From contig SCQV01000122.1 of the NCBI GenBank assembly GCA_004299085.1, positions 1 through 35,000 on the forward strand: 35,000 nucleotides of DNA. Direction: 5' to 3'. The notes under the pieces are model-generated. The model was given only the letters and a program-made list of their open reading frames with translations, was not told where the DNA came from and did not search any database. A program made the translations under genes and the position numbers. The DNA is from Chitinophagaceae bacterium. Its GTDB lineage: Bacteria > Bacteroidota > Bacteroidia > Chitinophagales > Chitinophagaceae. Shown here one piece after another: positions 14,232 through 34,623 of the stretch (its first letter is position 1; every line of letters starts with the position of its first letter).

Positions 14232-15458
14232 TCATAGCTTTTTTATTTGTTCAATTGTAAACCTCAGCCTTTCTATTAGATTGTCATAAGTAATTATATC
14301 CACCACATTTTTATACTTACGTTTCACCACTTCAAAATCCCTTTTTTGGTCAATTGATAAATTGTTTTCTCTCCCCATAATAATCACTCCGCTTGGGTTA
14401 GCTATCTTAATATCAAATCCCATTGGCAATTGCATTTGATATTTTTTGCTTAAAAACTGTTCACCCTCAAAACTCCAACGATTTAGGTAATAGATGTATT
14501 TTTCAATTTGCATAACCGTACCTGAAAGCTCTCTAAGAGGGATATAATTTTCTCGATAAACGCCTTTAGTCATAATAGCGTTCTCAAATGGCTTCTTTAT
14601 TTCAATAACATCAACATATCCATTAGAATCAACTAAAAGAAAATCAAGTTGCTTTTCTTTTATTCCGTTTGCCAATTTTGTCTGTATTGGGACTGACCTA
14701 AAAGCAAAAATATATTTAGGATAGAGCAATAGAATAATTTGTAAAATTTCTTCTTGCCATTGATGCTCACTGTACTGATTCTCATCCTTTAGCATTTCCT
14801 GTAACTTTTCAAGAATTGTCTGATATTTTACAAGTTCTATATCCTGAAAAGTTTTTGTCAAATTTGTACCTTGTTTAGACAGTTTTGTGTTCAGATACTT
14901 CTGGTATGGGTTTTCAGCATCTTTGACATTGTCTAAATAATTCCTTAGTACAGATGCAATTCGAGCTTCGACATATTTCCGTCTTTCATAAGATGTAGGG
15001 AAATATTTTAGTAGTTTTTCAAACTCTTCGACAGGTATAGCGCTTGGATGGTTACCACCTATATAAAAATCATTTTGGGATATGCTTTTGATAAGACTAA
15101 AGACCGAAACATTTGAATCAGCAACAAAAAAATTTGTGCTAAACGCAACATCTTTATGTATGAATATATCGAAGGCATCAATGAGTATTCCTTTTTTGAT
15201 TTTATAATAATCCCCTATTAGTTTTGCAAATAAAAAATAAGTAACCTGTTCTAAATCGGGGTCATCGAAATTATCTATTTCTGGTTTTTCGTCAAATTCA
15301 TCATCGCTTAGAACATCGTCTTCTTCAAAATAAAATGCTCTTTTAAGTTTTACGAATCCTTTTGTCTTAATGACTTCTCTTACCCAATCAGAAGAGGTTG
15401 CAAATTCTGCAATATATCGTAAAACCAATCTGCTATCCTTTACAAAAAAATCAATCAT
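14232..15458 (-). CDS. sduA: Shedu anti-phage nuclease (SduA, DUF4263)
   Basis: Shedu proteins are PD-(D/E)XK nucleases that protect against phage. The C-terminal half carries the family core: EHQWQEEIL (231-239), D272 in KQLDFLLVD, and the E-x-K of VIEIKKP (E286, K288). LRELSGTVMQIEKYIYYLN follows, then NPSGVIIMGRE. The N-terminal ~200 residues are a family-specific region with a strongly acidic patch (about 45-70). It starts 14 bp downstream of gajB on the same strand, so it very probably shares the Gabija transcript. It is convergent with the coupling-protein gene. Confidence 0.87.
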   Translation of the reverse strand: MIDFFVKDSRLVLRYIAEFATSSDWVREVIKTKGFVKLKRAFYFEEDDVLSDDEFDEKPEIDNFDDPDLEQVTYFLFAKLIGDYYKIKKGILIDAFDIFIHKDVAFSTNFFVADSNVSVFSLIKSISQNDFYIGGNHPSAIPVEEFEKLLKYFPTSYERRKYVEARIASVLRNYLDNVKDAENPYQKYLNTKLSKQGTNLTKTFQDIELVKYQTILEKLQEMLKDENQYSEHQWQEEILQIILLLYPKYIFAFRSVPIQTKLANGIKEKQLDFLLVDSNGYVDVIEIKKPFENAIMTKGVYRENYIPLRELSGTVMQIEKYIYYLNRWSFEGEQFLSKKYQMQLPMGFDIKIANPSGVIIMGRENNLSIDQKRDFEVVKRKYKNVVDIITYDNLIERLRFTIEQIKKL

Positions 15459-15472
15459 ATTTCGTTATCTTT

Positions 15473-17539
15473 TCAAGGTATATTTATTATCTCCCATTCC
15501 TCTCTATTAATACTTTGAAGATATTTATCAAATCTGTCTTTATGAATTGCAATACAAAGCAAATCAGTTGGTCGTGAAAAACCAACATAAGCCATTTTTG
15601 CGGATTGTTTAACTCTGTCACCGACGGTTGATTGTATTTGTGTTCCTAAAAATTGGTCTTTTAGTCGTTGCGATTCGTAAGATTTCGTATTTGCACCGTT
15701 TCCGTCTTTCTGAAAGTACGATTCCAAATACAATGTCGCACAATGTGTTTGTCCTTTTACTGCGTGAACGCTTGTAATTTCAATTTCAAGTCCATCTTCT
15801 TTGTAATGGTTGGTCGGTACTATAATCTCGGCATCTTCGGCAGGAATTTCGGCATTGTCAGTATTGACAAAATTTGAACTTGCGGAAATAGTTTTTTCAA
15901 ATAACTTAAGCAAAGTCGGAACGTATGCTTTTATTCCGTCCCAAACTCCATTTGCTTTTTCTTGGATTATTCCGATTGACCAATTGTAAAGGTTCAAATT
16001 AAGTTCGTCATATTTTTGAATGTCTTTTTCGTGAATAAAGTCAATTAGTTTTTTCTTTGTGTAAGGTCTGTCGTCTGCTGTATTGATGTTTTCTAAACGC
16101 AAAATTTTTAGAAAAGCGTTTAAAATGTTTTTCCGCAGAGGTTCTAATGTTTGCTTTTTCTCGTAATACAGCAAATAACTTTTTAAGTTGTCGTAGTCTT
16201 GTTTGGGTTTTCCTTTTTCTTTCTTGAAATCTTTGTGATAATCTTCTAAACGTAGTTTTGAAGCATCATTCCGACTTGTATTATCATCTTTCCATTCCGT
16301 ATTCCAACAAACAACTTTAATATCTTTAAATTCTTTTTTTGACGTCAACCTACCATTCGCTTTATACTCTTTTACAACTTTAGCAAAATAAGGAATGACG
16401 TTTGTAATAGTTGAATTTTCGAAAACTAAAATATGCGGTTTTATGTCGCATTCATTTTTCCCAACAATATCAAAGTTATTATCATTGTATAAAGCAAATC
16501 TTTTTACAACATCTGCGATTGGTTTGCTTAGCCTTTGGCTACCCGCTAAATTTAAAACGCTATCAGGATTTGTTCTTAATTGCCAAACTTCGTTTGTTTT
16601 TACACTGTTTGAAGAATGATAAATTGCTTGATTTCTGTCGCCAATTCGTTGAATTTTTGAAATGCTATTTCCGTCATCGTAAAAAATCTTTTCCAACAAA
16701 TTGTATTGATGTGTGTCCATATCTTGCATTTCATCCACAAAAACAAAAGGAAAACGTTTCTGTAAAAGTTCTTTTATTTGAGGAATCTTAAGAAGATAGC
16801 ATTCTCCAAAATGATATGCGTAATCGTATGAAATAATTCCTTTCTTCAGAACTTCAACGATTATCGTTTTAAGCCCAATGTATCTTTTGTTCGTTTGGGT
16901 TTTCAATAAAACATCATTGTCTCTGTTTTTTATTTCATCAGTAATAAAGTCATAATACAAGCCACGAACTTCTTTCTCTATATATTTAGTAACAAGTTGC
17001 TTTGTTAGATTTTTGTCTTTGTTCGCGTCTTTTTCAGCTCTTTTGATATGTCTTTTGTAAAATAATTTTGTTGGTTCGTCATAATCTTTTTTCCAAGCAA
17101 TTATATTGAACAGCCTTACTAATTCTTCTTCGTATCTGTCTTTATCAATCCAATTTAATTTTCTTTTGAAAACAAGATTGTAGATTGGAATAGCCAAAAA
17201 CTCATCAACAAAACTTTGTATTGTGCCAATAAAATTGGGATAAGAAAATAATCTCGGACAATGCTTTTGAATTTTTTCTTTTATCTCGTCAATGGCTGCG
17301 TTGGTATGCGACAAAACCAAAATACCCGAACCGTCAGCAAAAGGAAGTTTGCGTTCTAAAATAACCAACTTTGCAAGTAACGCTGTTGTTTTTCCGCTTC
17401 CGGGAACGGCTTGTAAATCTATGGTGTTGAAGTTGCGAATAAAATCTACACGTTCAGGGTCAAACGTTTTGCCCGCAGGTAAAAGCAACTGTTCGGCATA
17501 GGGAATATCATCATCTGTTATGTCAATTACCTGTGGCAT
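15473..17539 (-). CDS. gajB: Gabija protein GajB, UvrD/Rep-like helicase
   Basis: GajB is the superfamily 1 helicase-like ATPase that partners with the GajA nuclease. Walker A is AVPGSGKTT (44-52) and Walker B FVFVDEMQDMD (267-277). Motif III is IGDRNQAIY (299-307), and SQRLSKPIAD (about 334-343) follows. The late helicase motifs are ITSVHAVKGQTH (588-599) and MAYVGFSRPTDL (649-660). At 688 residues it is on the long side for GajB (typically nearer 500), with insertions in the 1B/2B-like regions. Its start overlaps the end of gajA by 17 bp. The AT-rich DNA differs from the mob genes. Confidence 0.88.
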   Translation of the reverse strand: MPQVIDITDDDIPYAEQLLLPAGKTFDPERVDFIRNFNTIDLQAVPGSGKTTALLAKLVILERKLPFADGSGILVLSHTNAAIDEIKEKIQKHCPRLFSYPNFIGTIQSFVDEFLAIPIYNLVFKRKLNWIDKDRYEEELVRLFNIIAWKKDYDEPTKLFYKRHIKRAEKDANKDKNLTKQLVTKYIEKEVRGLYYDFITDEIKNRDNDVLLKTQTNKRYIGLKTIIVEVLKKGIISYDYAYHFGECYLLKIPQIKELLQKRFPFVFVDEMQDMDTHQYNLLEKIFYDDGNSISKIQRIGDRNQAIYHSSNSVKTNEVWQLRTNPDSVLNLAGSQRLSKPIADVVKRFALYNDNNFDIVGKNECDIKPHILVFENSTITNVIPYFAKVVKEYKANGRLTSKKEFKDIKVVCWNTEWKDDNTSRNDASKLRLEDYHKDFKKEKGKPKQDYDNLKSYLLYYEKKQTLEPLRKNILNAFLKILRLENINTADDRPYTKKKLIDFIHEKDIQKYDELNLNLYNWSIGIIQEKANGVWDGIKAYVPTLLKLFEKTISASSNFVNTDNAEIPAEDAEIIVPTNHYKEDGLEIEITSVHAVKGQTHCATLYLESYFQKDGNGANTKSYESQRLKDQFLGTQIQSTVGDRVKQSAKMAYVGFSRPTDLLCIAIHKDRFDKYLQSINREEWEIINIP

Positions 17540-19292
17540 ATTTAATGGCTTTTACAAGGTAATTAACCGTGTCGTTGGTATCATCAATATTTATAATTGT
17601 GCGAACTTCTTTACTTAAATCTTCATCAATGGCATTTGCAATGTGATAAGCAATGTTCGTTTTTTTCAAAGTTTTGTTTATCAACTTTATTGCAAGAGCT
17701 TTTTCAAAATCTGTGTTCCAATCTGTATGTGTATGAAATGTTTTTGTCGCATTTTGCAACAGCGTTGTCAAACTTGTTGATTTGAATAGAGAATATTCCA
17801 AAGTCCAATTGGGTGCAGGAAAGTATTTTACATTTTCTTTCGATTGCTCGTTTATCTTTTTAATTCTTTCCTCTGTTTTTCCCTTAACTATTTCGGTATC
17901 TTGTTTTACAAAATCATCTCCGCTTTTTTCATATTCTCTAATGTCGGAATCAATAATTACAGCAACAGGAATGGTCATATTGGGTTCTTTTTCTCGCAAG
18001 TAAATATTTGCATAATGGTCAAAACCTGTGTGTCCGATATTCACAATAGAAACGCCTTTTTCGGTTAAGTTTATTCCGATTGCTTTTGCAATGCTTGGTA
18101 AAAGAATTTCTTCTGCCCAACCTTCCACTATAATAACGCCTTTAGCAAAAAACAAATTGGCTTTTGTGGTGTCCAAAAACTTTTCTAAAAATCTGTAATT
18201 ATCTTTTTTTAACTTGGTGTAAGTATCGCCCATAGGAAAAGCGTTTCCGTTGTTGCAAATTATCAAGTTCCTCAATTTGAGTTTGGAAGCCAAATTCGGG
18301 CTGTGCGTTGTAAGAATAAGTTGAATGTCTTTTTGTTTTTGAAGGGCTTCAATCACTTGCATTTGTGCTTGCGGGTGCAAGTGTGCTTCCAATTCTTCCA
18401 CCAAACCCAAACGCAAGCCAGTCCAATCTGATTTGGTTAAATGAAGCAATTCAGCAGCCATGAACAAACGGTTCAAGGTTCCTAGCCCCGGATTGGGTTC
18501 ATTTTTCAGAAACAGCGTTAGTTTTTCAAGAATGCTTTTGATGTCGTTCCCTGATGCTTCAAATTCGGTTTCATAATCTTTTCCATAAAAATTTTTAATG
18601 TAATTGTCAATTTTATCTTTTATCTGTTTGCCTTCTGTGTTCTTGGGCTGACCTGCATCATCAACTCCTTTGAAATAATTTTCCAATGCAGTTTTTAAAC
18701 CCGAAAATATATTTACCAAGCTGTTGTCTTTCTCTTTTCCTTTAAATGCTTCATCGCCCAAAAGAATTTGAGACAATCGTGAATTGCGTTTTGCAATCAA
18801 TTCATTTTCCGCATCACGCAAAGGTTTTAAGTAGGTTGCTTTAAAATATTCTTTAGTTTCTGCTGAAAGCATATATCCTTCTTCATCAACCCCCGCTTTT
18901 ACATCGGTCGGAATTATTTTATCTGCTTGGAGTTTTACATCGTAATTCAGTTTTAAAAATGGTTTTGCTTCTTCGCCTTTTCCATTCCAGCCTAACCATT
19001 CTGTAAAGTTTTTTGCTTCTTCGGGTTTTAAATCTTCAAAGGTTAGTTCAATGCGAAAACGACTTGAGTTGTTGTAAAAATCTTTTTCATCAACTCTGAT
19101 ATAATCGTAGCTGTGTGTTTTTAAAACTAATTTTATTGCATCAATAATTGCAGTTTTGCCCGAATCGTTTTCGCCAATAATTAGATTCAAACCTTTGGTT
19201 AGGTTTAAATCCAAATGCGGTTTTGCAAGGTCTATTTCTCCCGCTGTACCGAATTTTCTAAAATTCCAAAGTTTGATGTTTGATAGGTACAT
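17523..19292 (-). CDS. gajA: Gabija protein GajA, OLD-family ATPase-TOPRIM nuclease
   Basis: GajA senses nucleotide depletion and nicks DNA in the Gabija system. It opens MYLSNIKLWNFRKFG. Walker A GENDSGKT is at 40-47, LVEELEAHLHP (Walker B with D-loop) at 297-307, and the switch histidine in LTTHSPN at 327-333. The C-terminal TOPRIM has E390 in VEGWAEE and D448/D450 in IIDSDI. The 589 residues match full-length GajA. Immediately upstream a truncated paralogous N-terminus (19232-19741) runs 61 bp into this gene in another frame. Together with gajB this is an intact two-gene Gabija system. Confidence 0.9.
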   Translation of the reverse strand: MYLSNIKLWNFRKFGTAGEIDLAKPHLDLNLTKGLNLIIGENDSGKTAIIDAIKLVLKTHSYDYIRVDEKDFYNNSSRFRIELTFEDLKPEEAKNFTEWLGWNGKGEEAKPFLKLNYDVKLQADKIIPTDVKAGVDEEGYMLSAETKEYFKATYLKPLRDAENELIAKRNSRLSQILLGDEAFKGKEKDNSLVNIFSGLKTALENYFKGVDDAGQPKNTEGKQIKDKIDNYIKNFYGKDYETEFEASGNDIKSILEKLTLFLKNEPNPGLGTLNRLFMAAELLHLTKSDWTGLRLGLVEELEAHLHPQAQMQVIEALQKQKDIQLILTTHSPNLASKLKLRNLIICNNGNAFPMGDTYTKLKKDNYRFLEKFLDTTKANLFFAKGVIIVEGWAEEILLPSIAKAIGINLTEKGVSIVNIGHTGFDHYANIYLREKEPNMTIPVAVIIDSDIREYEKSGDDFVKQDTEIVKGKTEERIKKINEQSKENVKYFPAPNWTLEYSLFKSTSLTTLLQNATKTFHTHTDWNTDFEKALAIKLINKTLKKTNIAYHIANAIDEDLSKEVRTIINIDDTNDTVNYLVKAIKYATGN

Positions 19293-19741
19293 AATTGTTG
19301 TGGTTGGAATGCTCCCAAATAGTCATGAATGAAATATTGGAAAGTTGCACTGTCAGCCCGTTGCCCTTCAACTTCACCTGTGAAGTAGTTGGACAGGACT
19401 TTTTGTTTTTCTTTTTTGTAGGAAATAGTAATTCTTGCAAAATCCTTTTCTTCCGTTTCTCCTAAAACTAAATATTCGTAAAATGCCCCTTTCTGGTCAA
19501 TAGTGAGGTTTCTAAATTCGTATGAAATGGTAATGACAGATTCGCCCAAATAAAAATCATCAACAGTTACATACAATTCCTTTTGTAGATTACCCAAATT
19601 ATAAAATAATCGTATTGCATCAATAAGAGCAGTTTTGCCACTACCGTTTTCGCCAATTATTATATTGATGTCTTTGTTGAAATTTACTTTTAGATTTTTA
19701 TTTCCTTTATAATTCTGTATATGAATTAATGATAAATACAT
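19232..19741 (-). pseudogene. Truncated OLD-type ATPase remnant upstream of gajA
   Basis: A 169-codon frame beginning MYLSLIHIQNYKGNK, like the start of GajA, with Walker A GENGSGKT at about residues 33-40. No Walker B, H-loop or TOPRIM follows. After about residue 149 the protein is the GajA start region read out of frame (CTYQTSNFGILE). The junction therefore sits at the gajA ATG: the body of an OLD/GajA paralog has been lost and an intact gajA lies where it was. It may still be translated and could supply the gajA promoter and leader. A functional short protein is unlikely. Confidence 0.75.
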
Positions 19742-21419: not shown

Positions 21420-21707
21420 AACGCTTCTCAAACTATGATATGGACCAAGGTTAATACAAGCGATTACTATAACCCCTAATAATGTGGTTCTTTCTGCTGA
21501 CAGCTTTTGATATCAAAAAATTACGCAAAAAACTCTGTCTATCATAGTTGTTGGAAATTATTATCAGCTTAGTATGAATAAATATCGGGGCGAATTAGGA
21601 TGCCTTTTGTCACTAATAGTAATAGGATAACAAAAAATGAGAAAATTTCTCACTTTATCCATAAAAATAGTATCTTTGTCTTGAATTTTATAAAAAGAGG
21701 AACAACT
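21398..21707. other. Divergent control region between abiE-2 and rloAB
   Basis: About 310 non-coding bases. They hold the right arm of the abiE-2 operator, a weak minus-strand -7-like ATAGTTTG (21429-21436), the rloA dyad (21638-21652) and the rloA -7 box (21671-21678). An in-frame ATG at 21600 would extend RloA by 36 unlikely residues across the promoter, so it is not used. Confidence 0.55.
21638..21678 (+). promoter_or_regulatory. rloAB promoter with an overlapping dyad
   Basis: TATCTTTG (21671-21678) is a perfect TAnnTTTG -7 box 29 bases ahead of the rloA ATG. Where a -33 element would lie there is instead a perfect dyad TGAGAAA-A-TTTCTCA (21638-21652). A repressor could sit on the promoter there. 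Confidence 0.6.
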
Positions 21708-23006
21708 ATGCTATTGGAATTTACTACTGGTAATTTTCTTTCGTTTAAAGAAAAGAATACGCTGAGCATGTACGCCACAGCCGTAAAAGAATTTTCCGAT
21801 ACCAATGTGGTCGAAATAGAACATTACCGGATTTTAAAAGGCGCCGTTATTTATGGAGCCAACTCAAGCGGCAAGAGTAATCTTATCCGGTCAATGTCCA
21901 CCATGTGTAGGTTGGTATTGCAATCATTTGAACAATCATCTACTGCAGAATTGAACATTACTCCATTTCTACTAAATACTGGTAGTGAACAAAAACCATC
22001 CTTCTTTGAAGTGCTGTTTTTAATAAATGGTGCCAGGTATCGTTACGGTTTTGAAGTAGATAATTTTTCGATTAAATCGGAATGGTTATTTGAAGCAAAG
22101 AAACAGACAGAAAAACCTCTATTTGTAAGAGAAAATGATGGTATTGAGGTAATGAAGTCTTTTCCCGAAGGAAAAGACTTGGAAGAAAAAACAAGAAATA
22201 ACGCTTTATTTCTTGCCGTTGTTGACCAGTTCAATGGAAAAACAGCCAAAGCAATCATGAACTGGTTTGATAATTTTGTTACCATTTCCGGGTTAAGTCA
22301 TGAACGTTATACCGGTGTTACTTTTTCCTTATTGGAAAATGAAGAAACCAAACCTGCCTTACAGGAATTTTTCAATAACGCTGATCTCGGCTTTGACTCA
22401 GTAAAGTTGAATAAGAAAGAGTTTGACGCAGCACGGCTGCCGAAAGATATGCCCGAATCTATCATGCAGGAAATCAGCACCAAACTGCAAGGGCAAACAA
22501 TGGTAGATGCTATCACTTTACACAAAAAATATAACGATAAAAATAAAATCGTGGGTACTATTGAGTTTAATATGGATAGTCAGGAATCTGCCGGTACGAA
22601 TAAAGTGTTTAATATGTCGGGGCCTGTTTTTGACGTATTGCATGATGGTGGTTTTTTGGTGGTAGATGAACTGGACGCAAGCCTGCACCCATTACTTACA
22701 CTGGCTATTACCAAGTTGTTCAACTCAAAAGAACATAATCCTAAAAATGCCCAATTAATTTTTGCTACACACGATACCAATCTGTTGTCTTATGGTAACT
22801 ATCGCAGAGACCAGATTTATTTTGTAGAAAAGGATAAGTATGGTGCTTCTGATTTGTATTCATTAGTGGAGTACAAAGAAGAGGGCGCAACCAAAGCAGT
22901 GCGCAAAGACCGCTCTTTTGAGAAAGACTATATTCAGGGCAGATATGGGGCTATTCCGTTTATTGGTAATCTCTCAAATATTATTCAGGGATGGCAAGAA
23001 AAGTAA
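21708..23006 (+). CDS. rloA: RloA-like AAA (AAA_21) ATPase, first subunit of an RloAB/AbiL-type system
   Basis: An OLD-like ATPase lacking its own nuclease domain. It begins MLLEFTTGNFLSFKEKNTL, the usual start of COG1106 ATPases; GAGGA just upstream and a promoter box at 21671 support the ATG at 21708. Walker A is GANSSGKS (50-57), Walker B with D-loop LVVDELDASLHP (317-328), and the switch histidine FATHDTN (352-358). The C-terminal DRSFEKDYIQGRYGAIPFIGN is the family signature. The 432 residues are normal. It overlaps rloB by 16 bp. Related pairs (AbiLi-AbiLii, RloA-RloB) are abortive-infection or defence modules. Confidence 0.88.
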   Translation: MLLEFTTGNFLSFKEKNTLSMYATAVKEFSDTNVVEIEHYRILKGAVIYGANSSGKSNLIRSMSTMCRLVLQSFEQSSTAELNITPFLLNTGSEQKPSFFEVLFLINGARYRYGFEVDNFSIKSEWLFEAKKQTEKPLFVRENDGIEVMKSFPEGKDLEEKTRNNALFLAVVDQFNGKTAKAIMNWFDNFVTISGLSHERYTGVTFSLLENEETKPALQEFFNNADLGFDSVKLNKKEFDAARLPKDMPESIMQEISTKLQGQTMVDAITLHKKYNDKNKIVGTIEFNMDSQESAGTNKVFNMSGPVFDVLHDGGFLVVDELDASLHPLLTLAITKLFNSKEHNPKNAQLIFATHDTNLLSYGNYRRDQIYFVEKDKYGASDLYSLVEYKEEGATKAVRKDRSFEKDYIQGRYGAIPFIGNLSNIIQGWQEK

Positions 23007-23683
23007 AGATTCCCAATGAACGGTTGAAGCGATATGCAAGAGAGGAGCATAAACGAAAGCAGGACATACGGGCTAAGCGTGTGTATTATCTTATTGTTTG
23101 CGAAGGTGAAGAAACCGAACCCAACTATTTTGAAGGATTGAAACAAGATTTGCCCAAAGGTGTGCTTACGGCTTATCAGATAGACGTTGAAGGTACTGGG
23201 CGCAACACACAATCTTTGGTTGACGAAGCTATAAGATTAAAAACTGTTTACGAGAAAGATACCGGAAGACCAATAGACAGGCTTTGGGTAGTGTTTGACA
23301 GGGATAGTTTTGCAGCCAATGATTTCAATAATGCCATTCTTCGTTGTGAAAGTACACAGCCTGTTATTGGTTGTGCATGGAGCAATGAAGCATTTGAATT
23401 ATGGTATCTATTGCACTTTCATTATTATCAGAATGCAATGAACCGGCAACAATATCAGGATTTAATTGATCAAAATTTGCGACCTTTTTTGGGAGATAGT
23501 TATCATTATGAAAAGAACAGTACAATCATGTATGATTTACTGAAAGAGTATGGAAGCATTGACGATGCTATCCGAAATGCTAAACGGCTTTCTGAAACTT
23601 ATGATGAAAGGCAGGATTATGCGGAACATAATCCGTGTACAATGGTTTGGAGGTTGGTGGAGGGATTAATGGAATTGAAATAA
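22991..23683 (+). CDS. rloB: RloB-like TOPRIM-fold protein
   Basis: RloB (AbiLii-like) is the presumed nuclease partner of the RloA ATPase, the two together resembling a split OLD nuclease. The TOPRIM-like acidic residues are E38/E40 in VCEGEETEPNYF and D103/D105 in VVFDRDSF. The middle phrase GCAWSNEAFELWYLLHFHYY (about 127-146) and the C-terminal HNPCTMVWRLVEGL are family features. The N-terminus is very basic. At 230 residues it is full length. A decayed second rloB 3' end lies at 27214-27342 just before qatA. Confidence 0.87.
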   Translation: MARKVKIPNERLKRYAREEHKRKQDIRAKRVYYLIVCEGEETEPNYFEGLKQDLPKGVLTAYQIDVEGTGRNTQSLVDEAIRLKTVYEKDTGRPIDRLWVVFDRDSFAANDFNNAILRCESTQPVIGCAWSNEAFELWYLLHFHYYQNAMNRQQYQDLIDQNLRPFLGDSYHYEKNSTIMYDLLKEYGSIDDAIRNAKRLSETYDERQDYAEHNPCTMVWRLVEGLMELK

Positions 23684-23918: not shown

Positions 23919-26900
23919 ATGAACAGCAATTCTAGCAATCACGATATTAAATATCCAAGATTCATAAATAATGCCCCCTGCGGACTGGATTTATTTGAAG
24001 GCAAGGCACAGGATAAAATTGCAAACAATATTTCTTCTGGAATACTTGACCATCCCGAGTTAAAAATAATCGGCATTGATGGTGGATGGGGTGCTGGAAA
24101 ATCAAACTTGGTAGAGTTAGTTAAAAAGAAATTAGAAGAAGAATGTCACTTTTTTATTTACGATGCCTGGGGGCATCAGGAAGATTTGCAAAGACGGGCA
24201 TTTCTTGAAGAATTAACTGAATACCTTACTATAGAAAAATTTGTTTCTGATGAATGGAAGGCTAAACTTAAAGACCTTTTAGCCAAAAAAAGGGAAACAG
24301 AGAGTAAAAAAGTACCCAAGCTTAGCATTGGAATTATAATAACGGGGTTACTGATATTACTTAGTCCAATACTGAAATTTGTTTCAGATAATGTTCATAG
24401 CATATTATGGAAAACACTGATTTTATTAACTCCTTTTTTTATAATACTAATTCTTATTGCCATATTTTACCGGAAAGAAAAAAGTCGCACTTTCCTTCAA
24501 CGGACAAAAAAAGCATTTTCAAAACTGTTTTTAGAGTACCAAAATAAAATTGAAGAAGAAACTAAATATGAAACGATTTCAGAAGATGAACCTTCAGTAA
24601 GAAAGTTTAGAGAATGGATGAGCGAAATATCCACAGATTTAAAAGTAAAACAAAAGAAATTAGTTGTCGTTTTTGACAACATGGATAGGTTGCCACAAAA
24701 AAAAGTACAAGAGTTATGGTCTTCTATTCATGTGTTCTTTGCAGAACATAATTATGAAAATATAAAAGTTATTCTTCCTTTTGATAGAAGTCATATTCAA
24801 AACGCTTTTAAAACAGAAGATGCAAATAATGGGCAAAATTTTGGTGATGATTTTATAAATAAAACTTTCAATGTAGTCTATAGAGTGTCTCCTCCTATAT
24901 TATCCGATTGGAAAGGTTATTTTAAATTTCAATGGAAGAATGCCTTTGGTGACAACACAGTCGAAAATGAAAATTACAATAATGTAGTACAAATATTCGA
25001 CCTTCTGAGTACAGCTATAACACCTCGAAAAATTATTGCTTTTATAAATGAAATTGTTGCAATAAAACAACTTGCTGTTGAAACGATTCCCGATAAGTAC
25101 ATTTCTCTATTTGTCTTTGGCAAAAATATAATTACGAAGAGCCCATTTGATGAAATTATCAATCCCACTTATTTAAAAGGCTTAGAATTTTTATACAAAA
25201 GTGATGAAGATTTACCTAAATACATTGCAGCTCTATTTTATCAAGTAGAACCAGAACATGCTATTCAAATCGTTTTCACTAACAGGTTAAAAGAAGTCCT
25301 AAATAATAACCAATCTGAGGAAGTTTTGAAAATAAGTGAAATCCCTGAGTTCATAGATATTCTTGAAAACTCTATTGCGGAGGTAACAAATTTTGAAAAT
25401 GCAATTTTGGCTATTAATAAGTTACCCGATGAAAAATTAGGCAACGAATTTCAAAAACAGATGATTTGGGAATGCTTGTATAAAAAAGTAGTTCCGAAAA
25501 ATGATTCAAAATTGTACGATTATCAAATAGCATTATTGGCCAACATAAAAGACAAGAAATCGTATTTACAAACTGTATTGATTGGATTGACGTCAGGGGA
25601 AAATTTTAAAGCTCTTGATTATTATAGGAATATTGATGAGCTTAATGGAAGATTTAGTAAGGAGTTTAATGTCTTTGAGTATTTAAAAAGCAAAGAGACA
25701 AATGTTGCTGATTTTATAGACTTTGTAAAAAATGCCAGAGAAAAATATGGTAATTATAAAATTACGTGCAAAGAAAAAGAACTAAATGATTATTTAATAG
25801 CGTTTGATATAAATAAATTATCAGAAATTGATTTTATTCCTTATTTACAAAATGAATATGATTTTGGAGAATACAAAAAGAAGTTGGAGGAACTTATTTC
25901 TGCGAATGCACCAAATAATAATAAGCTGATAATATCAGGTCTTTTTGATAAATACAAGGAAGTTTCAAAAGATAAACCACTTAAAGCCAAACTTGAAGAC
26001 CCTCAAATTTACACTTTTTGGCAAGCATCAAATCCAGACGAAGATTTTTATTATGATTTACTTTCAATGCGTATAGCCAAATTGACAAACTTTAATGCAA
26101 ACTATGTCACTTATTTTAATGATGCGTTACAAAAAACCGATAGTAATATCATTAAAAAGGTTTGTGAAAGAATTGAGTATTATATAAACTATGGAGATAT
26201 TTTATTGGCTCTTAAATCTTTTAATCAATACCCTTTATTTAAAGCAATTGCCAATGAACTTACGATAAATTCTTATGGAACCTCAAAAGCCGAGTTAGTA
26301 ACGATATTGTCTTCATTTGATGAAATTTGCAACAAAGGAGATATTGACCCAATCACACTTATTAAAAAGTTTGGCGGAGCATCAACAGAAAAAATCACTT
26401 CGCAAAATATCTCAAAAACAGTATCAATTTTCTTTGTCAAAAATGCTTTAGAAACTGATTGCAAGTTAAGCAAGCATTGCATTGACTGTCTAAAGGAATA
26501 TCTTGATTCATTAGATGTAAATAAATGGATAGAGATTTTTAAAGATTTCAATAGTTATGGATTTAAAGTATCACAAATTCTTCCCTCATATAAATTCACA
26601 CAAAATGCTTTCGATGCAATAAAAGATGTATTAAAACAAATTGCTGAAAAGAAAATTGCAATCCCCGACAAAACATTGTGGAATGATTTAATTCAAAAAA
26701 TAGAAGGTCAAGAAAGGAACTGGCAGGGAACATTTAATGGCATACGAGACTTATTCTGTCGGGAGGACAATACGAATCCAGAACTTTTTAAGTTTTTTTC
26801 GGACTGGCTGTTTAAATACTCAGTTTTAAGCGAAAATTCATCATCATTACGAACGATATTCAAATCAACAGTTATTAACGATAATGAATGTTTACAAACT

Positions 26901-27092
26901 ATTATAAGTAATAAACAACAAATGCCAGCCATTATAAATACTGCAAACGTAGGAGAAGCGCGAGAGTTTAAAGACTTAATTCAAGAACGGCTAAAAGACA
27001 ATAATACAGAAGAATTTATTGAGTTTGCCAAACAAATCGGTATTGAAAAGAAAGAAGTGAATAAAGATAGTGTCGAAGAACAATCTATTTAA
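23919..27092 (+). CDS. Large KAP-family P-loop NTPase (1057 aa), orphan
   Basis: KAP NTPases are membrane-linked P-loop ATPases, several of which act in phage exclusion. Walker A GIDGGWGAGKSN is at 52-63, followed by YDAWGHQEDLQRRAFLEEL (81-99). Two transmembrane segments (about 137-154 and 164-184) are inserted in the KAP fold, as is typical. Walker B VVVFDNMDRLP is at 249-259 and LPFDRSHI at 286-293. The remaining ~650 residues are AT-rich-coded, helical and without recognised motifs. It stands alone between rloAB and qatABCD. It is not a duplicate of qatA: length, linker and C-terminus differ. It could be a single-gene defence system; function is inferred from context only. Confidence 0.82.
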   Translation: MNSNSSNHDIKYPRFINNAPCGLDLFEGKAQDKIANNISSGILDHPELKIIGIDGGWGAGKSNLVELVKKKLEEECHFFIYDAWGHQEDLQRRAFLEELTEYLTIEKFVSDEWKAKLKDLLAKKRETESKKVPKLSIGIIITGLLILLSPILKFVSDNVHSILWKTLILLTPFFIILILIAIFYRKEKSRTFLQRTKKAFSKLFLEYQNKIEEETKYETISEDEPSVRKFREWMSEISTDLKVKQKKLVVVFDNMDRLPQKKVQELWSSIHVFFAEHNYENIKVILPFDRSHIQNAFKTEDANNGQNFGDDFINKTFNVVYRVSPPILSDWKGYFKFQWKNAFGDNTVENENYNNVVQIFDLLSTAITPRKIIAFINEIVAIKQLAVETIPDKYISLFVFGKNIITKSPFDEIINPTYLKGLEFLYKSDEDLPKYIAALFYQVEPEHAIQIVFTNRLKEVLNNNQSEEVLKISEIPEFIDILENSIAEVTNFENAILAINKLPDEKLGNEFQKQMIWECLYKKVVPKNDSKLYDYQIALLANIKDKKSYLQTVLIGLTSGENFKALDYYRNIDELNGRFSKEFNVFEYLKSKETNVADFIDFVKNAREKYGNYKITCKEKELNDYLIAFDINKLSEIDFIPYLQNEYDFGEYKKKLEELISANAPNNNKLIISGLFDKYKEVSKDKPLKAKLEDPQIYTFWQASNPDEDFYYDLLSMRIAKLTNFNANYVTYFNDALQKTDSNIIKKVCERIEYYINYGDILLALKSFNQYPLFKAIANELTINSYGTSKAELVTILSSFDEICNKGDIDPITLIKKFGGASTEKITSQNISKTVSIFFVKNALETDCKLSKHCIDCLKEYLDSLDVNKWIEIFKDFNSYGFKVSQILPSYKFTQNAFDAIKDVLKQIAEKKIAIPDKTLWNDLIQKIEGQERNWQGTFNGIRDLFCREDNTNPELFKFFSDWLFKYSVLSENSSSLRTIFKSTVINDNECLQTIISNKQQMPAIINTANVGEAREFKDLIQERLKDNNTEEFIEFAKQIGIEKKEVNKDSVEEQSI

Positions 27093-27348: not shown

Positions 27349-29229
27349 ATGTGGGCCGATAACGAAACTTCCGAAGATTTATTAGGCTTCAAAGTGCATT
27401 CTGATTTACTGGTTGATGTGATTAACGATGACACTGTACTACCGGTAACAATTGGTGTTTTCGGTGATTGGGGGAGTGGAAAGTCAAGTATTTTGAAGAT
27501 GGTCGAAAAAGCACTTTCAGGTGGTCAAGAAGATGGCTACAAAGATGGCACTTTAGTGTTGTATTTCAATGGTTGGGTATTTGAAGGATATGACGATGCT
27601 AAAGCAGCTTTACTGGAATCAATTATAGAAAAATTTGATAAACATAAGACCATTGGTAATAAAGTTAAGGATAAGACCGTGAAATTGTTTAAGTCTGTAA
27701 AATGGATGAGATTGATAGGGCTAAGTTTTAAAAAAGTCATTGTGCCTACCGCTGCCGCCTATCTTACCGGAGGTTCATCTCTAATTCCATTCCTTTTAAA
27801 CCAGTTTTCTCAATTGAATCCTCAAGATTTAGCAGATAAACTTAAAGGAGAGGGGGCAGAAGATTTTTTGAAAGAGATAATTAAAAAGAATGAAGATGAA
27901 GAAGTAACAATTGTAAGAGAATTCCGTGATGATTTTAAGGAAATGATTAATAAATCAGAGATAAAGAAACTCGTTGTTATTATTGATGATTTGGACAGAT
28001 GTACGCCGGACAGGCTTATTGAAAATCTTGAAGCGATTAAATTGTTCTTGAACGTTGAGAAAACAGCGTTTGTCATAGGTGCAGACCCAAGAATAGTGAG
28101 GCACGCCATCGAGCACCGTTATAAAACCGATAGTATTGAGAATGCAGATGACCCAGATAGTAGAAACAAGCGTATTGTAAGTGATTATTTGGAAAAACTA
28201 ATCCAAGTACCATATTATTTGCCTAAATTAGCAGATAACGAAGTTGAAACCTACCTGACTTTACTTTTCTGCAAAAAAGTAATGGGAAACGATTTTGCTA
28301 AAGTACTGGATGCTTTCAAAAAAAATAGGGAAGATAATCGGTATGATGTTTTTGGTTTAGGAGACATTCGAGATTTAGCGAATGATGAGCAAAAGAAGCA
28401 ATTAGCTGAAAGTGTTTCTTTGATTGCTTCATTGTCGCCTATTATTACCGAAGGATTGAAAGGTAATCCACGACAAATAAAACGTTTTTTAAACACCTTT
28501 ACATTAAGAAACAGGCTTGTAAAGGTTGCTAAATTACCCGATTTCAAAATAGACATCTTGGCTAAGTTAATGGTACTTGAATATGCTACGACAAATTTGT
28601 TTAAGGAAATCTACAACTGGCAATCATTACAAAAAGGAGAACCAAAAGAGATTGTTGTTCTTGAAAAATTTGTTTCTGAAAATAAAATTGAAGATATAAA
28701 AAAGCAATTTTCGCCTGAGTGGGCATCTGGAAAAATAATAAAGTGGCTTAATACAGAACCGAAGCTTGCGAATGTTGATTTAAGAGATTACTATTGGATT
28801 TCAAGAGACCAGCTTTCTAGCACAATTAGTGGAGCATCGCTGATACCAAGGCATATTCGTAGTTTAACCAAAAAGCTAATTGACCATAGCTCTGGAAGTA
28901 TTTTGACTAATACCATTATAAAAGAAGTAATCGGAAAATTAAGCGACACAGAAAATGAAACACTTTTGTCGTTACTTGAAAAAGAATTGATTAAATCTCC
29001 TGAAAATGATAGCATTCATAAGGTATTTATAGAACTGATGGCTCAAAATGCAACAGGTGTTATGGAGTCTTATAGCAGAATTATAGGAAAGGCAGACAAT
29101 AGTAAAATACCATTTAGTCTTCGTAGCGAATTTGCATTAGCTGAAAGCAGAAATAGAAATATCAAATCGCTGTATAGCCAGTTTGATAAAACATCGAAAA
29201 TTTATAAAGCATTAAATCCTACAAAATAA
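27349..29229 (+). CDS. qatA: QatA, KAP-family ATPase of the QatABCD defence system
   Basis: The ATPase of Qat, an anti-phage system of four genes. It opens with DNETSEDLLGFKVHSDLL. Walker A GDWGSGKSS is at 39-47 and LYFNGWVFEGYDDAKAALLE at 71-90. A hydrophobic insertion lies at about 120-150, and Walker B IIDDLDRCTP at 211-220 is followed by FVIGADPRIVRHAIEHRY. The KAP C-terminal helix GLKGNPRQIKRFLNTF comes later. The 626 residues are normal. Its stop overlaps the qatB start (TAATG). The rest of the operon follows with no gaps, so the call rests on both motifs and gene order. Confidence 0.9.
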   Translation: MWADNETSEDLLGFKVHSDLLVDVINDDTVLPVTIGVFGDWGSGKSSILKMVEKALSGGQEDGYKDGTLVLYFNGWVFEGYDDAKAALLESIIEKFDKHKTIGNKVKDKTVKLFKSVKWMRLIGLSFKKVIVPTAAAYLTGGSSLIPFLLNQFSQLNPQDLADKLKGEGAEDFLKEIIKKNEDEEVTIVREFRDDFKEMINKSEIKKLVVIIDDLDRCTPDRLIENLEAIKLFLNVEKTAFVIGADPRIVRHAIEHRYKTDSIENADDPDSRNKRIVSDYLEKLIQVPYYLPKLADNEVETYLTLLFCKKVMGNDFAKVLDAFKKNREDNRYDVFGLGDIRDLANDEQKKQLAESVSLIASLSPIITEGLKGNPRQIKRFLNTFTLRNRLVKVAKLPDFKIDILAKLMVLEYATTNLFKEIYNWQSLQKGEPKEIVVLEKFVSENKIEDIKKQFSPEWASGKIIKWLNTEPKLANVDLRDYYWISRDQLSSTISGASLIPRHIRSLTKKLIDHSSGSILTNTIIKEVIGKLSDTENETLLSLLEKELIKSPENDSIHKVFIELMAQNATGVMESYSRIIGKADNSKIPFSLRSEFALAESRNRNIKSLYSQFDKTSKIYKALNPTK

Positions 29230-30050
29230 TGGGAACGACACAAAGAATGACACCAGGCGTATCGGGTGAGCCTAATTGGGGAGATTTGAATAAATCAATC
29301 ACGAATGTTTCTAAAGCTGTTGAAAAGGAAAAAGAATTAGAAGATAATAATAGTATTTCTGCTGAAGATGCAGCAAGACAACATATTAAAATAGAAGGCA
29401 GGAAAAATGCTCATATAAAATCAGCATTTAGAAATCTTGTCAAGACAGGAGGGGGTAGGAAGAATATAAGTAGTGGAAAATCCAGTTCTATAGGAAGAGC
29501 TGGGCTTAGATCTGCTGGTAGAATTGCACATTTCTTTACCAGTGTCGGAAACAGTGGATTACAGCAAACGTTAATTGATATTGGTTTTGGAATTTTACAA
29601 GGAAAATCGTTTCAAGATATTTTAGATTTTCTCCTTGTTTATTGTACCGAATCAAATGAGGGGATGGATGAAACTGCCGCCAACAATGCTTCTTGTGAAA
29701 TTATGAAAGAACTGGCTGCATTAGCTGGGAATGATTTAGAAAAGTTTGAGCAGCTTGTTAAGGAATATGTTGAAGGGAATATGTTAGCAGATTTGCTTTG
29801 CCGATTTTGGGGGCTATATATTTTTGAACATCTATCTCAAAGGTTTGGGGAGAAAGTTAAACAACAGAAAGGCATTGAAATTGGAAAAGAAACTTTTAAA
29901 ATAATCAAGGATGATATTCTTGGTCAGGTAAAAGTTTTAAATACTCAAAGACCTGTTACAAAAATTGATTGGAAAGGTCAGGAGGGAAAACAGGAAATAG
30001 AAGAAATTTTTGATTCCATAATTAAAATAATTTGCGATGAAAACGATTAA
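29229..30050 (+). CDS. qatB: QatB, second component of QatABCD
   Basis: A 273-residue protein without catalytic motifs, called by position between the KAP ATPase and the QueC-like gene, the order of known qat operons. It opens MGTTQRMTPGVSGEPNWGDLNKS, with the PNWG motif I associate with QatB-like proteins. A Gly/Ser-rich basic stretch (about 76-100, GGGRKNISSGKSSSIGRAG) and a helical C-terminal half follow. It overlaps qatA by 1 bp and qatC by 14 bp, so the proteins are likely made in fixed ratio. Its biochemical role is unknown. Confidence 0.82.
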   Translation: MGTTQRMTPGVSGEPNWGDLNKSITNVSKAVEKEKELEDNNSISAEDAARQHIKIEGRKNAHIKSAFRNLVKTGGGRKNISSGKSSSIGRAGLRSAGRIAHFFTSVGNSGLQQTLIDIGFGILQGKSFQDILDFLLVYCTESNEGMDETAANNASCEIMKELAALAGNDLEKFEQLVKEYVEGNMLADLLCRFWGLYIFEHLSQRFGEKVKQQKGIEIGKETFKIIKDDILGQVKVLNTQRPVTKIDWKGQEGKQEIEEIFDSIIKIICDEND

Positions 30051-31359
30051 GATAGAGGTGCCTGTTTATGATACTTCTTCGGGTGCTGCTACAATAAAAA
30101 TAATAAGCAATACAGGTGGAAACTCCATTCTTGATATTGGCTTTAAAGTATTGCTACCATTTGCAAATCTTGTCAATAAAGAAGTTCTTGATTTTTTTAT
30201 AATGAGTGCTTCGGCATATGGTGTGGACAGATTTGTTGAAAGGAAGCAAAATTCAGTAGATGGCTGGTCAAGACAATTAAAAGTTAGTTTTCCTGTTCAT
30301 AATCCCTCAAAGTGGAATAATTGCAAAGGCGAACTCAACAAATTATTGTCATTTCTCACAGGAGATTATTGGACTGTGGATTTTAGGAAAGAAAAATTTA
30401 TTTTCCCCAAAGCAGAATTAGATAACGAGTTGTCAGCCACATTTACCCAAGTTAATTTATTGTCAGGAGGATTAGATTCTTTGATTGGAGCATTAGACTT
30501 TCTTAAATCGAATCCCCAAGAAAAGGTTCTTTTTGTTTCTCATTATGATCCTCAAATGCACGGTCCCAAAGGCGACCAAAAAGAATTGATTGATGAGCTA
30601 AAAACTATGTATCTTAATCAGTTTGCCTATATTCCATCTTTGAGAGTATCATTAGAACATACAAACGCCAATAGAGAAACAACTTTTAGAAGTAGGTCTC
30701 TTTTATTTATTGGAATTGCGTTATTAGCAGCACAAGCAACTAATACACCCAATATAATAGTTCCTGAAAATGGAACAGTATCTTTAAACTTTCCCCTTAG
30801 TGCATCAAGAAGAAGTTCTTGTAGTACAAGAACAACACATCCTTTTGTTTTGGAAAATGTACTTTCTATTTGGAACGCTTTATCCATTCTTACTAATATT
30901 TCTAATCCGTATGAGTTCCAAACCAAGGGCGAAATGGTTACGGCTTGTAAAGACCAAACTAACCTCTTGAAATTAATTACAATGTCAAACTCTTGCGGGA
31001 AGCGAGGGCATAGGGCTCATTGGCAAACTCCGGGAGCATCTCACTGTGGGATATGTATGCCTTGTTTATATAGGCAGGCTTCATTAATGGCAATTGGAGA
31101 TAAAACTTCCTACGGAAATTCAATAAACTCATTGATGCCATTTCTAAGTAAAAAATCTCAAGATGTTGGTGCTTGTTTAGATTTTTTAAGTACCCCAATA
31201 ACCAAAGATGAAGTTAAACAAGAACTAATCGTCAATGGTGTAAAGAATTTATCCAAACTAAATCATTTTGTAGATGTAGTTTTGAGAACTAAAGTAGAGC
31301 TTTCAAAATGGGTAAAGAAAGTTGGTAACTCATCAATAAAATCAAAGGCAGGACTTTAA
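30037..31359 (+). CDS. qatC: QatC, QueC-like ATP-pyrophosphatase
   Basis: QueC enzymes make the 7-cyano-7-deazaguanine precursor; in Qat the QueC-like protein is thought to modify a protein or nucleotide target. The PP-loop SGGLDS is at 143-148 in NLLSGGLDSLIGALDFL. The zinc ligands are at C320 (SCGKRGHRAHW) and C337, C340 and C343 (HCGICMPC). The N-terminal ~130 residues are an extension absent from housekeeping QueC. No other queuosine-pathway genes are near, which argues against tRNA or DNA 7-deazaguanine synthesis here. Adjacent to qatD with no gap. Confidence 0.9.
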   Translation: MKTIKIEVPVYDTSSGAATIKIISNTGGNSILDIGFKVLLPFANLVNKEVLDFFIMSASAYGVDRFVERKQNSVDGWSRQLKVSFPVHNPSKWNNCKGELNKLLSFLTGDYWTVDFRKEKFIFPKAELDNELSATFTQVNLLSGGLDSLIGALDFLKSNPQEKVLFVSHYDPQMHGPKGDQKELIDELKTMYLNQFAYIPSLRVSLEHTNANRETTFRSRSLLFIGIALLAAQATNTPNIIVPENGTVSLNFPLSASRRSSCSTRTTHPFVLENVLSIWNALSILTNISNPYEFQTKGEMVTACKDQTNLLKLITMSNSCGKRGHRAHWQTPGASHCGICMPCLYRQASLMAIGDKTSYGNSINSLMPFLSKKSQDVGACLDFLSTPITKDEVKQELIVNGVKNLSKLNHFVDVVLRTKVELSKWVKKVGNSSIKSKAGL

Positions 31360-32100
31360 ATGATAGATGCACATTGTCATATTGATTTGTATAAACGACC
31401 AGAAGATATACTAAATGAGTGCGAGGCTTTGGACATGACAGTTTTGGCAATGACTAACTTACCCAGTCATTTTGAAGTTGGGTATCCCTTTTTTCTGGAA
31501 AGAAAAAAGATTCGGTTAGCATTAGGAATGCATCCATTGTATGCGAAATACCATGAAAATGAATTTCCTTCATTCATACGAAACACATCAAAGACATCTT
31601 ACATTGGTGAAATAGGGTTGGATTTTTCTCAAGAAGGGATAGCAACAAAAGAGATTCAATTAAAAACATTTAAGAGGCTTCTTTTTGAATTAACTGGAAA
31701 GAAAAAGATACTAAGCATACATTCAAGGAGAGCAGAGAAAGAAGTCTTAGAACATCTCATAGGATATCAGATTAAATCTGCTATTTTTCATTGGTATTCA
31801 GGCTCCTTGTCATTGATTTCTAAAATATATAGTGCCGGTTTCTTTTTTTCAATAAACCCTGCTATGATAAGGTCAAAAACAGGACAATCCATTATTTCCC
31901 AAATCCCAATGGATTATGTATTGACGGAAAGTGATGGGCCTTTCATTCAAAATGATGGTGAAGTAATAAAACCACGGGACATTAGTTTGGTGATTACTTA
32001 TTTGTCCTCAATTTGGCAACTACCTCAAAGTGCAATTCAAGAAAAAATCAATTCTAACTTTCATCGCTTAATCAATACAATAAAAAGTTCCGATCAATAG
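31360..32100 (+). CDS. qatD: QatD, TatD-like metal-dependent hydrolase/DNase
   Basis: TatD-family amidohydrolase fold. The metal site begins with H5 and H7 in MIDAHCHIDL, then E84 in YIGEIGLDF, H121 in LSIHSRR, H144 in IFHWYSG, and D192 in LTESDGPF. At 246 residues it is the usual length. Its ATG follows the qatC stop directly. As the fourth gene it completes QatABCD; TatD-like QatD may cleave nucleic acid or peptide. No terminator is obvious after it. All metal-binding residues are present. Confidence 0.9.
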   Translation: MIDAHCHIDLYKRPEDILNECEALDMTVLAMTNLPSHFEVGYPFFLERKKIRLALGMHPLYAKYHENEFPSFIRNTSKTSYIGEIGLDFSQEGIATKEIQLKTFKRLLFELTGKKKILSIHSRRAEKEVLEHLIGYQIKSAIFHWYSGSLSLISKIYSAGFFFSINPAMIRSKTGQSIISQIPMDYVLTESDGPFIQNDGEVIKPRDISLVITYLSSIWQLPQSAIQEKINSNFHRLINTIKSSDQ

Positions 32101-34040: not shown

Positions 34041-34283
34041 ATGAGCTTAGATGAAGAAATATTATTGCAGCGTATCACTGTTAAGCCAGGCTTAATGAGT
34101 GGGAAACCCACTATCAGGAATATGCGTTTCACTGTAAGTGATATTCTGGAAATGCTTGCATCTGGTATGACTGAAGCTAATATCCTTGAGCAACATCCTA
34201 TTTTGGAAGTTGGGGATATTCAGGCTGCCTTATTATATGCCTCTCTAAGATTGAAAAATACAGTAGTAATTCATGCTGACTGA
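34041..34283 (+). CDS. DUF433 antitoxin-like protein
   Basis: DUF433 (VapB-like) proteins are antitoxins of DUF5615 toxins. The 80 residues contain RITVKPGLMSGKPTIRNMRFTVSDILEMLASGMTEANILEQHP, whose GKPTIRNMR and ILEMLASGMT phrases are diagnostic. The helix-turn-helix-like end VGDIQAALLYAS fits the family. The gene is intact and its stop overlaps the start of the toxin frame by 11 bases. It is the first gene of the pair. Confidence 0.88.
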   Translation: MSLDEEILLQRITVKPGLMSGKPTIRNMRFTVSDILEMLASGMTEANILEQHPILEVGDIQAALLYASLRLKNTVVIHAD

Positions 34284-34623
34284 ATGGGAGATATGACTTG
34301 ATGCAAATATTTCTCCTGTAATTTCCAAATGGATGGGAGAATTTACCAGTTTCATAGTAAAATCATCCTACATTTTGCCTTTCTATAAATTGGAGGATGA
34401 TGCTATCTATAAAAAGGCAAGAGAACAAGGCAATGTTAATCTAATTTCCAAAGATGCTGATTTCTCCGAATTGATAAACAGGTTAGGTTCACCACCCAAA
34501 TTAATTTACCTGAAAACAGGAAACTGTGATAATAAGAAATTATGGAATTTCCTGAGAGGTCATATTAAGGAAGCGATTGAAATTTTAGTTTCTACAGATG
34601 TAACAGTGGTAGAAATGGAATAA
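34273..34623 (+). pseudogene. DUF5615 PIN-like toxin with an in-frame TGA
   Basis: Read from the ATG at 34273 the frame is MLTEWEI, a TGA at 34294-34296, then LDANISPVISKWMGEF, AIYKKAREQGNVNLISKDADFSE and GSPPKLIYLKTGNC. DUF5615 proteins of this type normally begin with IWLDANISP, so the TGA stands where TGG (Trp) is expected: a single-base nonsense change. A later Met (34333) would give a 96-residue product without the LDAN acidic motif, presumably inactive. The DUF433 antitoxin upstream is intact. Confidence 0.82.

Follow-up and report, generated by a model that had tools for sequence, protein, structure and literature searches.

A KAP-family NTPase gene in the defence island of a 35-kb Bacteroidota contig (the window, i.e., the whole stretch of DNA analysed) has relatives which are repeatedly found within the operons of restriction-modification (R-M) systems. 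It is likely that this gene functions in defence, because of this linkage, its mobility, and the kinship of its KAP domain with PifA and QatA; we regard it as a probable accessory anti-phage gene, one which the catalogues searched omit. Neither the KAP fold nor defence by KAP-containing proteins is new. The full-length family, with its C-terminal solenoid and R-M linkage, is not described in the sources searched: it has no PADLOC, NCBIfam or Pfam model, and no description was found in open-access papers.

Genomic Context

Besides the defence island (Table 1), the window carries genes for ParB, DUF932 and SSB proteins together with mobilisation genes (MobC-like, relaxase, and coupling protein). 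The KAP gene is separated by 235 bp from AbiL/RloAB and by 256 bp from QatABCD, all on the same strand, and intergenic gaps of this size mean that neither neighbour is tightly coupled to it. This agrees with a preliminary description, made from the sequence of the window, which had placed the gene between two defence systems and in operon with neither. The tandem of two different KAP ATPases which it had pointed out is also real, QatA being a second KAP NTPase similar to the first only in the NTPase core.

Two larger units were considered and rejected. No matches to the window's Qat proteins were found beside the KAP gene in any of the other loci read, from which we surmise that the KAP gene and QatA are probably two cassettes side by side rather than one system. 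The combination with AbiL/RloAB is seen at three loci, namely the window and L046 and L070, where relatives of the window AAA_21 protein flank the KAP gene; but the 235-bp gap and the absence elsewhere indicate a loose association.

Other features of the window include the Shedu gene sduA, which lies directly behind gajB with a gap of 14 bp on the same strand, so that Gabija and Shedu may be co-transcribed. A 169-residue ORF overlapping the start of gajA has an OLD/GajA-like AAA domain of which only the N-terminal part is present, and is possibly a truncated second copy. The partial AAA_13 protein at the start of the contig spans profile positions 180-706, its N-terminus lying off the contig; AAA_13 is an ABC-type ATPase family, which takes in PrrC- and RloC-like proteins. 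The DUF433 and DUF5615 pair has a toxin-antitoxin-like make-up.

Table 1. Location of the features discussed, in window coordinates; residue numbers are those of the KAP-family protein
Feature	Position	Strand	Remark
AAA_13 protein, partial	20-1756	+	contig start
AbiE	6.5-8.2 kb	-	defence island
Shedu and Gabija	14232-19292	-	defence island
169-aa ORF	19232-19741	-	
AbiE, further copy	19.9-21.4 kb	-	defence island
AbiLi/AbiLii (AAA_21 and RloB; AbiL/RloAB)	21600-23683	+	defence island, directly 5' of KAP gene
KAP-family NTPase gene, 1057 aa	23919-27092	+	subject of study
KAP NTPase core (AAA+/STAND-like), residues 32-384	24012-25070	+	Pfam; PifA homology over whole core
Walker A GIDGGWGAGKSN, residues 52-63	24072-24107	+	alignment of 47 members
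Predicted two-helix membrane hairpin, residues 137-186, within NTPase core	24327-24476	+	hydropathy and AlphaFold2
Walker B KKLVVVFDNMDR (KLVVVFDNMDR), residues 247-257	24657-24689	+	alignment of 47 members
All-helical C-terminal solenoid, residues 400-1045, fast evolving	25116-27053	+	AlphaFold2, pLDDT mostly 85-95
QatABCD operon, independent cassette	27349-32100	+	defence island, directly 3' of KAP gene
DUF433 and DUF5615 pair	34041-34623	+	

Architecture of the Protein

The ORF begins with ATG, has no internal stops and is intact. Judged by sequence comparison it is a genuine gene, a chance ORF being ruled out by full-length homologues in many genera. The Pfam KAP_NTPase family (PF07693) is matched over the whole core (E 2.4e-25; 89.8 bits vs. 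a cut-off of 20), and 47/47 family members also match PF07693. Within the alignment of these 47, residues G52, G55, W57, G58, G60, K61, and N63 of Walker A and D253, N254, D256, and R257 of Walker B are invariant, which bears out the earlier claim of a complete KAP ATPase. The motif TPR(K/E)II..IN, which closes the core in the 47 full-length members, is also found in PifA.

Two hydrophobic helices (residues 137-157 and 162-186) lie between Walker A and Walker B, and their hydrophobicity is kept across the family; this predicted insertion is in keeping with PF07693, in which membrane segments sit at this point. These are the two membrane segments of the preliminary description, which had likewise noted a C-terminal region of about 650 residues without known motifs. 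No Pfam domain was found in that region of the window protein, nor one common to its homologues.

The AlphaFold2 model, built from 47 sequences, possesses an α/β NTPase core, the hairpin and, from about residue 390 to 1040, a continuous helix array (mean pLDDT 85.9; pTM 0.52), the relative placement of the domains being unreliable. Against solved structures, Foldseek returned the RADAR ATPase RdrA as the top hit for each of the two models (E 2.3e-4 and 2.6e-4), Avs3 taking second place for the better of them; these matches are weak (TM-score ≤0.2 by query length), with other helical-repeat proteins close behind, and helical solenoids in general match many unrelated proteins. We read the predicted resemblance to RdrA and Avs3 as a likeness of architecture, not as membership. 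The structure prediction and fold search suggested in the preliminary description gave a predicted helical solenoid and this likeness. Neither the window protein nor the 47-row profile had a genuine match in a PDB sequence search; in PHROGs a weak match was confined to the KAP part, and the only hits in a viral structure library were a giant-virus KAP protein and unrelated proteins.

Comparison with Known Systems

PifA is a membrane-linked T7 exclusion protein. The KAP core of the window protein aligns end to end with that of PifA from plasmid F (profile columns 31-385, E 3.2e-12), each is the product of a single gene, and the PADLOC PifA model is matched by 47/47 family members. However, PifA consists of 741 residues, whereas the family described here carries the helical C-terminus of ~650 residues and is linked to R-M; no similarity to PifA was found outside the KAP core, so that the likeness does not extend to the whole protein.

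QatA, encoded next door, is also a KAP NTPase with an uncharacterised C-terminus, but the window protein resembles it only over residues 47-329 and scores 33.7 bits against an NCBIfam QatA cut-off of 600. The KAP gene has no QatB, QatC or QatD of its own beside it, the adjoining operon having its own QatA.

RdrA of RADAR, which is reported to be heptameric (PMC9994260), and Avs share with the family an NTPase core followed by a large helical C-terminal part, and are the best fold matches among defence proteins. The match is weak and at the level of architecture, whereas the family possesses a predicted membrane hairpin and has no N-terminal nuclease; no sequence match to either was found in PADLOC or the PDB, and no RdrB deaminase is present among the window neighbours. 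Finally, PrrC, RloC and RloA-B resemble the KAP gene in that they too are accessory and lie within type I R-M loci (PMC12707154, PMC2610378), but by description they belong to other ATPase classes, PrrC and RloC being anticodon nucleases.

Distribution of the Family

Scanning one genome per species yielded 132 relatives, 80 of which were retained; together with loci from sampled genomes these fell into 56 clusters at 90% identity, among them the window and two outliers which are distant. Neighbourhoods were read at about 53 non-redundant loci, and 47 full-length members were aligned. The spread is patchy both between phyla and inside them, a near full-length copy being present in 5/399 genomes of the same order, with one copy interrupted. 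Relatives derive mostly from Bacteroidota, others being labelled Gammaproteobacteria, Planctomycetota, Lentisphaerae, or Firmicutes; a single relative was found on viral contigs, and none in annotated phages. Some are located among ordinary genes (e.g., L062). The closest relative of the window protein (L039; 53% identical) is embedded in a type I locus, and these two form a tree group with L040 and L029. In several members of the family the coding sequence is divided between two ORFs (L041/L030, L070, L101, L102, and L114).

About 30 near-identical copies (L083-L118, e.g., L095:9974-13228; plasmid loci L027 and L028) are 29% identical to the window protein. Their hosts include Bacteroides, Prevotella, Parabacteroides, Alistipes, and Riemerella, with many gut Bacteroidales genera represented. 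The gene is found here 17 bp 3' of a DUF4143/AAA_14 ATPase gene and 5' of mob genes, on CTn-type elements; in two plasmid records tet(Q) lies near the KAP gene, and one of these also contains an RteC-type gene.

Linkage to Restriction-Modification

R-M is the commonest partner in the family. Same-strand, short-gap positions in R-M operons were recorded at 15 type I, three type III and five other non-redundant loci of about 53, and these counts are a lower bound, since several contigs stop near the KAP gene. Clustering of neighbour proteins revealed the recurring order HsdM, HsdS, KAP, HsdR, the three Hsd proteins being confirmed by Pfam on L066. In type I loci the KAP gene usually lies between hsdS and hsdR: its start ranges from a 4-bp overlap with hsdS to 33 bp past it in L042, L046, L049, L052, L057, L061, L066, L069, L073, and L074, gaps of 3-33 bp being frequent, and hsdR overlaps its end or follows within 6 bp in L060, L066, and L069. 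Further genes separate hsdS from the KAP gene in L039, L045, L060, and L071; hsdR is upstream in L071 and L064, while L075 has an EcoEI-type HsdR upstream and an HsdM-like gene downstream. Type III Mod/Res genes accompany the KAP gene in L081/L082, L104, and L068. The remaining R-M partners are EcoRV-like with a D12 methylase (L105), NgoPII-like with a C5 methylase (L106), MmeI-like (L079), and type ISP (L051 and the closely related L054). Single cases include Gabija-like genes in L051, identified by reading the sequence, a reverse transcriptase with two Shedu-like genes in L058, and an AAA and S8 protease pair in L029.

The type I linkage is far above chance by a rough binomial against background HsdR density. 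Type I genes are common: the background was estimated at roughly two HSDR_N matches per genome among the matches listed, and the calculation (p 0.0053) gives about 2e-21 for 14/45 loci, a figure which is too strong given shared ancestry. At least 15 changes of context occur on the family tree, and the types of R-M differ in structure; the linkage is therefore not one inherited event. Given this variety of partners, it is unlikely that the KAP protein associates physically with R-M in any specific way.

The window copy and about half of its relatives have no adjoining R-M gene, and none is annotated anywhere in the window. Three HSDR_N matches occur elsewhere in the same genome, outside the annotated genes of the window, so a partner acting in trans is possible. 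The preliminary description had regarded the gene as an orphan single-gene system and an undescribed defence candidate, to be checked by neighbourhood statistics. These reveal the R-M linkage counted above. The candidacy holds, backed by the neighbourhoods and by the lack of a full-length model; the orphan status applies to the stand-alone window copy, but not to the many relatives within R-M operons of every type. The gene therefore looks like an accessory module, able to travel alone too, rather than an orphan.

Evolution of the Core and Solenoid

Pairs whose KAP cores are 80-94% identical often have solenoids only 45-65% identical, and in some deeper pairs these values fall to 57% for the core and 22% for the solenoid. 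By analogy, a slow motor joined to a fast helical part resembles what immunity sensor NTPases show; relaxed constraint on a scaffold is another possible cause of the rapid change in the solenoid. A different pattern concerns the hairpin segment (about nt 417-633), which in L067:330-3515 and L075:9974-13138 exhibits 40-52% DNA identity between flanks of about 95% and looks like a block exchange; partial, weaker block differences are seen in L051/L054 and L095/L119. Swapping of hairpins between members is not claimed as a rule, since only L067/L075 is a strong case and hairpin and core identities covary over all pairs (r 0.81).

Proposed Function

This mobile, accessory gene probably encodes a KAP NTPase which forms oligomeric rings and is anchored to the inner membrane through its helical hairpin. 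The C-terminal solenoid would detect signs that infection is under way, or that restriction has failed or been completed, the candidate triggers being a phage protein, invader DNA or DNA ends. Recognition would lead to an ATP-dependent rearrangement of the core and to a PifA-like output at the membrane, by which infection would be stopped. Such a protein would provide a second line in cells whose primary DNA-targeting system falls short. We give this mechanism, taken as a whole, about an even chance of being correct.

One alternative is that the protein is a restriction guard similar to PrrC, silenced by a working R-M complex and freed by a phage anti-restriction protein, upon which it stops growth. 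There is a precedent in PrrC, whose gene lies inside a type IC locus and which responds when the enzyme is inhibited (PMC12707154); many type I operons have the KAP gene placed between hsdS and hsdR, and an RloAB-type gene is found near it in two other loci. However, its partners also include type II, IIL, ISP, and III systems, which have no common subunit, and both in the window and on CTn-type elements the gene is found by itself. A silencing contact with HsdR, HsdM or HsdS would therefore not be general, and we consider a guard of this type unlikely.

The composition of the solenoid bears on a second alternative, in which a membrane-tethered ring binds incoming or cut DNA and aids its destruction by any nuclease system, without cell death. 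With a net charge of about -17 the solenoid is acidic, and its composition therefore points to no basic surface for binding DNA; the gene also persists without an adjoining nuclease partner. The recurring partners do act on DNA (R-M of several types, with Gabija- and Shedu-like genes in single cases), and QatA is reported to be a DNA-binding heptamer or octamer which, as does QatD, affects the phage range of the Qat system (PMC13279940). The idea fits the partners but lacks direct support, and is in our opinion improbable. A function for the mobile element itself, e.g., keeping out incoming elements or regulating transfer, would suit the near-identical copies beside mob genes on CTn-type elements of many gut Bacteroidales and the window copy, likewise 3' of mob genes, but is very unlikely, most of the diverse relatives in R-M loci having no transfer genes nearby; exclusion of elements would in any case be a defence-like activity.

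Returning to the sensor NTPase with an output at the membrane, a broader version can be put forward tentatively, as possible rather than probable: the family may constitute an undescribed, widespread class of membrane-anchored sensor NTPases, which plugs into all R-M types via a generic restriction or anti-restriction signal, the core and membrane hairpin being conserved and the rapidly diversifying solenoid reading phage-specific signals. If this is right, restriction-modification, which ranks among the commonest DNA defences, would have a general second-line partner, which the catalogues overlook since it lies concealed within R-M operons. As the family is carried on tetracycline-resistance CTn-type elements in dozens of gut Bacteroidales genomes, its effect on the exchange of phages and elements in the gut would be directly testable.
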